From: Desulfobacterales bacterium | GTDB lineage: Bacteria > Desulfobacterota > Desulfobacteria > Desulfobacterales > UBA5852 | Length of the DNA stretch: 33,975 nucleotides | Direction: 5' to 3' | NCBI GenBank assembly: GCA_030065585.1 | Contig: JASJED010000083.1 | Location: forward strand, 1-33,975 | Shown here: positions 2,771-4,863 of the stretch, piece by piece | Layout of the letters: each line of letters opens with the position of its first letter | Numbering within the stretch: the first letter of the stretch is position 1 | Position numbers and translations under genes: made by a program | The notes under the pieces: model-generated | Seen by the model: only the letters and a program-made list of their open reading frames with translations | Database searches by the model: none | Told to the model about the DNA's origin: nothing

Positions 2771-3073
2771 ATGACGGAAATCAACGCTCTCAATGGGGCC
2801 GGGAAGCTTCAATCCCGCGCGCCGCAATCTTCGGTTGCGCCGGGGACTCCCGCGCAAGGGTTTGGCAACACGCTCGAAGCGGCCCTTAAAGATGTCAATC
2901 AACAGCATCTGGATGCCGATCGCGCCGTGGCCGATTTGGTGTCCGGCCGAAGTCAGGATGTCCACAATGTCATGATCGCTTCCCAAAAGGCGGATATCGG
3001 CTTTCAACTGTTGATCCAAGTCCGCAACAAGGTGGTCAGTGCCTATGAAACGATCATGCGGATGCAGATTTGA
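2771..3073 (+). CDS. fliE: Flagellar hook-basal body protein FliE
   Basis: HNVMIASQKADIGFQLLIQVRNKVVSAYETIMRMQI C-terminus typical of FliE; follows flgC. Confidence 0.93.
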   Translation: MTEINALNGAGKLQSRAPQSSVAPGTPAQGFGNTLEAALKDVNQQHLDADRAVADLVSGRSQDVHNVMIASQKADIGFQLLIQVRNKVVSAYETIMRMQI

Positions 3074-3220
3074 CGGTCCCGTAAAAAGTCCGATAGCGGC
3101 GTTACGCTTCAGCCCTCGTCAGTCAGCGTACCGCAAGTACGCTTCTTTCCTCGGGCTTCACAAGCCTTGCTCTCGAACTTTTTTCGGAACCGTCTATTGG
3201 ATATGACTTTTTACGAGGCC
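3072..3220. repeat. MITE/REP-like imperfect inverted-repeat element between fliE and fliF
   Basis: GACGGTCCCGTAAAAAGTCCGA (3072-3093) pairs 19/22 with the reverse complement of TCGAACTTTTTTCGGAACCGTC (3173-3194). A further arm GACTTTTTACGAGGCC (3205-3220) pairs 14/16 with 3075-3090. Internal hairpin GCGTAC-CGCAA-GTACGC. No coding ORF inside. Confidence 0.65.
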
Positions 3221-3249
3221 ATCAGATATAGGGGATAAAGGATTAACCC

Positions 3250-4863
3250 ATGGACAAGGCTTTGGGGCAGTTGCGCACCGCCATCGCGACCATGAGTCTC
3301 AAGAAGAAAATCAGTCTCCTTCTGGTCGTGGGCCTGATGATCGGCGGGTTTGTCTACCTGATCAGTTGGAGCGGTCGTCCCGACTATCAGAACCTTTACG
3401 TCAACCTGTCGGCCGAAGATGCCGGTCTGATCATCGAACGCCTAAAGGGGCAGCAGATCCCTTACCGCCTGGCGGGAAACGGCAGCTGCATCCAGGTGCC
3501 CGCCGAAAAGGTCCACGAGCTGAGAATGGTCATGGCCTCGGAAGGCCTGCCCCAGGGGGCGGGCATTGGATTCGAGGTCTTTGATAACGCCAAGCTGGGC
3601 ATGACGGAGTTTTTGCAGAACGTCAATTATCAGCGGGCCCTGCAGGGCGAGCTTTCACGTACCATCAACCAGATCGACGAAATTGAAAGTTCCCGTCTGC
3701 ACCTGGTCATGCCTGAGCAAACCCTCTTTGTGGAGGCCGAGCGGCCGGCCAGCGCATCGGTGGTGCTGAAGCTCAAACCGGGTCGCCACTTGAACCAAAA
3801 CCAGATCCAGGGGATCGTTCATCTGGTATCCTCCAGCCTTGCGGGCCTGGAACCTGAAAATGTCACGGTGGTCGACAACCGGGGCAAGTTGCTGGCCGGA
3901 CGCGACGAGGCTTCGTCGGAGCAGGCTCTCAGCTCGGACCAGTTCGTGTATCAGCGCCGGATGGAGACCACGCTCGAAAACCGTGTCAAAACCATGCTCG
4001 AAGAAGTTCTGGGGCCCAACAAGGCGATTGTGCGCGTTTCCTGCGACCTGAATTTCGTCCGCCATGAAGAAACCGAAGAGAAATTCCTGCCGGACAATCA
4101 GGTGGTCCGCAGCGAGCAGCTGTTCAACGAGACGACCAGCGGTCAGGGCAACCTGCCCATGGGTGTACCGGGTGTGCGCGCCAATACCGAACAGGGCGCC
4201 ATCGGCACGGATGTGAATCCCCCGCCGGTGATCAGCAACCGCGAAAGTACAGTTTTTCAGAAGCATGACCAGACCAAGAATTATGAAATCGGCAAAGTGG
4301 TCAGCCGGAAAGTGATGCCCTTTGCGACCCTCCAGCGGGTATCGGCGGCCGTTATCGTGGACGGTACCTACGCACCGGTCGCCACCAAGAAAAAGAAAGC
4401 GGCGCCGGAATGGCAGTATGTCGCCCGCCGCCCGGAAGAGATGCAGCAATTTGAGCGCATCGTCAAACGGGCCATCAATTACAGCGAGGCCCGCGGCGAT
4501 GCCGTTGAAATCCAAAATATTCCCTTTGAGACCAGCCAGGTCGATGCCGCGCCGGAGGCCCCCGACACCGGTGGCTGGGGCACCGCTCTCAAACGGTATC
4601 AATTTGTCTTCGATTTTCTGCTGGTCGGCCTGTTTATCGTCATGAGCTTCCTGTTTCTGGTGCGTCCGCTGATCAAATGGCTGACCGCCGATTCACCTTC
4701 CAATGGCGAGATCATCCGCCAGTTGCCGAAAACCGTCGGGGAGTTGGAAGGCGAATATAACCGCGGCAGCGGTCAGGTCTCCTTCATGGATCAGGCGCGT
4801 CAGATGATTGAAAACGACGGGCAGAATTCCGTCGGCGTGATGAAGGCCTGGTTGAAGCAATAG
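3250..4863 (+). CDS. fliF: Flagellar M-ring protein FliF
   Basis: YQNLYVNLSAEDAGLIIERLKGQQIPYRL, SRTINQIDEIESSRLHLVMPEQTLFVE, C-terminal TM; precedes fliG. Confidence 0.97.
   Translation: MDKALGQLRTAIATMSLKKKISLLLVVGLMIGGFVYLISWSGRPDYQNLYVNLSAEDAGLIIERLKGQQIPYRLAGNGSCIQVPAEKVHELRMVMASEGLPQGAGIGFEVFDNAKLGMTEFLQNVNYQRALQGELSRTINQIDEIESSRLHLVMPEQTLFVEAERPASASVVLKLKPGRHLNQNQIQGIVHLVSSSLAGLEPENVTVVDNRGKLLAGRDEASSEQALSSDQFVYQRRMETTLENRVKTMLEEVLGPNKAIVRVSCDLNFVRHEETEEKFLPDNQVVRSEQLFNETTSGQGNLPMGVPGVRANTEQGAIGTDVNPPPVISNRESTVFQKHDQTKNYEIGKVVSRKVMPFATLQRVSAAVIVDGTYAPVATKKKKAAPEWQYVARRPEEMQQFERIVKRAINYSEARGDAVEIQNIPFETSQVDAAPEAPDTGGWGTALKRYQFVFDFLLVGLFIVMSFLFLVRPLIKWLTADSPSNGEIIRQLPKTVGELEGEYNRGSGQVSFMDQARQMIENDGQNSVGVMKAWLKQ

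Follow-up and report, generated by a model that had tools for sequence, protein, structure and literature searches.

The segment at 3072-3223 of our window, a stretch of 33,975 nucleotides of DNA from a Desulfobacterales bacterium, is with very high confidence a miniature mobile element (MITE) inserted at the end of fliE. Most likely it was moved in trans by the transposase of an insertion sequence (IS) of the same genome, with duplication of a 6-bp target and no change to FliE. Observed are the copies, their ends and duplications, relatives free of the element, an IS that shares the element's ends, and a fold with compensatory changes. The element consists of a long imperfect hairpin unit, in which arms L and I enclose a conserved core, and of an additional right end R of the IS type. 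We infer that the DDE transposase of the same-genome IS, 1.9 kb long and carrying the same 19-bp ends, acted in trans to move the fliE copy, and that the insertion, transcribed as a hairpin, is tolerated by the operon. Insertion into AGATWT, overlapping the end of fliE, duplicated the 6-bp target and lengthened the fliE-fliF spacer by 158 bp.

Alignment of the copies with their flanks showed that the element spans GACGGTCTCGTAAAAAGTC at its left end (L) to GACTTTTTACGARTCCATC at its right end (R), which gives a long form of 152 bp at 3072-3223 on the forward strand, the strand that also carries fliE, fliF, the arms and the helices. The first-pass annotation, which had delimited it as 3072-3220, was right about the start and fell short at the end. 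Its arm positions hold: the left terminal arm L (GACGGTCCCGTAAAAAGTCCGA, 3072-3093) is identical at 19/22 positions to the reverse complement of 3173-3194, and a third arm (GACTTTTTACG...) begins at 3205. This third arm, however, had been called truncated and is actually the complete right terminus R (3205-3223, GATGGCCTCGTAAAAAGTC on the complementary strand), directly followed by the right target-site duplication AGATAT (3224-3229), which was recognized by reading copies individually. The left duplication, AGATTT, visible in the aligned flanks, occupies 3066-3071. L (3072-3090) and R (3205-3223) form terminal inverted repeats with the consensus GACGGTCTCGTAAAAAGTC / GATGGACTCGTAAAAAGTC, R resembling IS ends (GAT...) and L being of the MITE type (GAC...). 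The internal arm I (3173-3194) repeats L in inverted orientation and serves as an alternative right end, that of a 124-bp short form, because short copies stop there with duplications of their own: L023 (1002-1125) and L034 in the same genome carry exact 6-bp duplications around L..I, and L235, from another family, has an exact duplication around the short form as well.

The repeat far exceeds what chance would produce: in the host's own genome, 40 scored hits were found among 135 candidates (best non-self E 7e-51), and reading one by one yielded at least 51 copies with both left and internal arms. The pattern of the terminal inverted repeat hit 201 times, its reversed control 7 times. The 6-bp target-site duplications match at 4.81/6 positions, compared to 2.31 when partners are shuffled (maximum 3.22 in 2000), and the window's own pair, AGATTT / AGATAT, matches at 5/6. 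Judged by its sequence, 3072-3223 is a non-coding MITE that agrees with the definition on every feature tested: it is short (152 bp), lacks a transposase gene, is present in at least 51 copies, and has its ends in common with an autonomous element (L132, 147-2045, in the own genome; G001, G015, G006 and G113 elsewhere). The earlier suggestion of a miniature mobile element is borne out by this multiplicity, by the 6-bp target duplication, by the empty site of relatives and by the same-genome IS. Targeting of pre-existing hairpins or terminators was considered and rejected, the joined empty sites having less structure than controls from nearby (mean -16.6 vs -20.9 kcal/mol).

fliE (2771-3073) encodes a FliE of 100 amino acids (Pfam FliE, E 6e-29), and the next gene of the operon, fliF (3250-4863; 537 amino acids; Pfam YscJ_FliF, E 6e-69), begins 176 bp past the fliE stop. 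The left arm indeed overlaps the fliE TGA (3071-3073), as noted at first pass; its T comes from the target and its GA from the element. Since the target T joins the GA at the element's start, the fliE frame still ends after ...MQI, which leaves FliE unchanged. The proposal that the element supplied the stop codon is hence correct for the letters GA but not for the effect. The unoccupied target would here read ATG CAG ATW TAG, as against ATG CAG ATT TGA after insertion, so that FliE would end at this very codon without the element. Likewise, in four same-genus relatives that lack it (G001-G004), fliE ends at this codon with ...ATGCAGATY and then a stop (TAG in G003 and G001, TGA in G002, TAA in G004); fliF follows 26 bp after the fliE stop in G003 and lies close by in G001. 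Read from these sequences, the insertion rebuilt the fliE stop with FliE unaltered. Near the element, neither terminators nor sigma-70-type promoters exceeded the level expected by chance. Gene context by a longest-ORF proxy was dropped as unreliable, as it miscalls the fliE locus itself.

A candidate cognate transposase with the same ends, which the first-pass annotation had proposed to look for, is present in the host genome and is of the DDE type. Contig ends in relatives led to the IS, which is about 1.9 kb long and has the same 19-bp ends as the element. The own genome holds a complete copy (L132, 147-2045; ends GATAGACTCGTAAAAAGTC / GATGAACCCGTAAAAAATC; 582-aa ORF) and a second, partial one at a contig end; G001 has a complete copy as well (L094, 164-2073; 586-aa transposase). 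Exact 6-bp duplications, AATCTT and AATTTT, surround the IS copies in G015 and G006, while the flanks of the L132 copy, TTGGTT / AACTTT, show no matching 6-bp duplication. The transposase combines DUF772 and DDE domains, and its residues D152, D360 and E485, invariant in six relatives, correspond to the DDE catalytic triad. It is like the IS1182 family (DDE) in this acidic triad and in its nearest NCBIfam model, IS1182, yet the score of 162.7 bits lies under the curated cut-off of 270 bits, and plasmid relatives annotated as IS1182 family share 23-27% identity; the partner transposase is distantly related to IS1182. The ISDol1 group of ISNCY, with 6-7 bp duplications, may, we presume, be nearer. 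Support for the mobiliser comes from G113, of another family of the phylum, where the pairing of IS and MITE is found independently: this genome holds 13 IS-end copies, mostly 98% identical (terminal inverted repeat GATGGACTCGTAAAAAGTC), whose end matches the final stretch of the transposase gene of G108 at 75%, and many MITE copies besides. A candidate for the mobiliser is now at hand in two families distant from each other, and the 582-aa DDE transposase of the same-genome IS is likely to be the one that mobilises the element. A homologous transposase was found in only 4 of the 148 genomes sampled from the phylum, whereas a covariance model built from the own-genome copies of the element matches 53 of them; in most hosts, therefore, the mobiliser has been lost, collapsed in assembly, or is a different one. 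A second multi-copy IS end type, GATGGACTCGTAAAAAGTATTTTTATTC..., was seen at contig ends of G003 (L078-L080), which points to a further IS whose terminal repeat is almost identical.

The fold of the element is real and is kept by compensatory changes. As RNA, it reaches -56.5 kcal/mol (z -3.5). When 38 copies from the own genome were scanned for mutual information without supervision, the top-ranking pairs formed one nested structure (columns 57-75, 26-102, 6-122, 8-120), and 14 pairs changed on both sides in the own-genome copies, against 6.6 after shuffling. Within this structure, covariation marks an inner helix, 3111-3115 pairing with 3153-3157, and a central hairpin, GCGTAC-loop-GTACGC (3125-3143), whose closing pair covaries. 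Across 52 copies from the phylum, both-side changes were found in 29/36 pairs and in 201 cells (57.5 shuffled), with a covariation score of 0.314 compared to 0.123 for shuffles and at most 0.074 for slid structures. The slid structures are the safer control, since the phylum alignment followed the model to which it was fitted, and the kinship of the sequences inflates the excess over shuffles.

Three readings of the fold remain: that it is needed for movement, that it is a functional RNA, or that palindrome correction produced it incidentally. Template switching and hairpin repair are known to correct near-palindromic DNA, and such correction during copying may have matched the arms, an explanation we regard as a serious one even if we would not bet on it, and one that concerns the origin of the fold and leaves the MITE identity unaffected. 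Indeed, L and I agree more within a copy than across copies (0.824 vs 0.743), which is not so for L and R (0.57 vs 0.61). Some mismatches, however, stay at fixed places across families (columns 7-9 vs 136-138 in A4), and the short inner helices covary too. We suggest only tentatively that this is a phylum-wide hairpin family with the whole fold, and not just the ends, under selection, so that the mobile element would at the same time be a structured RNA or single-stranded DNA that has its own function. The element as such lends itself to testing whether selection or palindrome correction maintains the hairpins of bacterial MITEs.

We consider it rather unlikely that the folded unit is a functional structured RNA, or a host processing or attenuation site, that was spread by transposition and putatively tunes fliF at fliE-fliF. 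The phylum-wide compensatory changes speak for such an RNA, as do the covarying central hairpin and inner helix, which are not terminal repeats, the folding z-score, and the position of the insertion between co-oriented fliE and fliF. Yet insertion sites vary among relatives, with four same-genus fliE-fliF regions free of the element, no terminator exceeds chance, and Rfam 15 gave no covariance-model match at the gathering score or at E up to 10. Furthermore, mismatches on the transcribed, L-to-R strand are more often A.C than G.U (51:9 and 61:37, counts dominated by a few columns), the opposite of what selection on that RNA strand would produce; this excess of A.C over G.T gives no hint of selection acting on the L-to-R strand as RNA.

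Like REP/BIME, ERIC and Correia-type repeats, the element is short, palindromic, multi-copy, intergenic and foldable when transcribed, but it differs from them in sequence, ends and host group, ERIC and Correia being set apart by description. The first-pass label "REP-like" finds no support, because REP elements are moved by a Y1 transposase without target duplication. Palindromy and many copies are what would favour a REP/BIME element mobilised by a REP-associated tyrosine (Y1) transposase, which we judge highly improbable: the 6-bp target duplications refute this identity, and the 19-bp ends held in common with a DDE-transposase IS and the length of 124-152 bp also oppose it. We give practically no credence to a plain intergenic spacer whose inverted repeat arose by chance, the case of a conserved spacer raised at first pass, as we found nothing in its favour and it is refuted by the copies, the duplicated target and the fliE-fliF regions of the four same-genus relatives without the element.

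Searching the literature (open-licence papers) by terminal-repeat and core sequence and by topic, we found no description of the element family. The closest published precedent that we found comes from Geobacter, which belongs to the same broad group as the host. Chunjie of Geobacter uraniireducens, as summarised in PMC10969869, is a MITE of 178-235 bp (compared to 124-152 bp here) with terminal and direct repeats and tens of mostly intergenic copies, one of them inserted in an operon whose structure is undisturbed according to the title of the original paper; the likeness to our element, a MITE in an operon, is one of description.

The covariance model matches 44/76 relatives, and the best matches listed for the 53 positive genomes of the phylum are full length. 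In named genomes, the matches listed for the core pattern fall almost only in Desulfobacterales or 'Deltaproteobacteria' assemblies, including Desulfosarcina cetonica, D. alkanivorans and D. widdelii; outside these, they comprise single hits in one Syntrophobacterales and one Nitrospirae assembly. Whereas a MITE sequence is usually restricted to a narrow group, the 124-nt core described here, which has a covarying fold, target duplications of 6-7 bp and two alternative right ends, is spread through much of one phylum. The model and covariance profile can be used directly to annotate repeats that are so far unexplained in these genomes. The Nitrospirae hit, an exact core match outside the host phylum (L193, 787-823), points to inter-phylum transfer or to misbinning.

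Several copies in distant genomes (L259, L270, L249 and L252) are flanked by duplications of 7 bp and not 6 bp, for instance AATTATT and ATCACTT. A repeated motif, TTTTCTTT-N(5-10)-AAAGAAAAG(T)AACC, adjoins many insertions (L074, L076, L079, L041 and L084, beside IS or MITE ends) and forms a short hairpin at several sites that have no relation to one another; insertion may favour this motif as a target, or it may be a repeat family in its own right. In one subfamily of the element (L033, L044, L045, L140, L144, L147, L149, L150 and L151), an additional hairpin-like stretch, CCACCCGAGGCGGATAA, adjoins the left arm on its inner side. Finally, at L143 (208-314), a miniature of the element, 87 bp long, is enclosed by the two halves of a 14-bp inverted repeat (GCTGCCCCATCTTT ... 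AAAGATGGGGCAGC).
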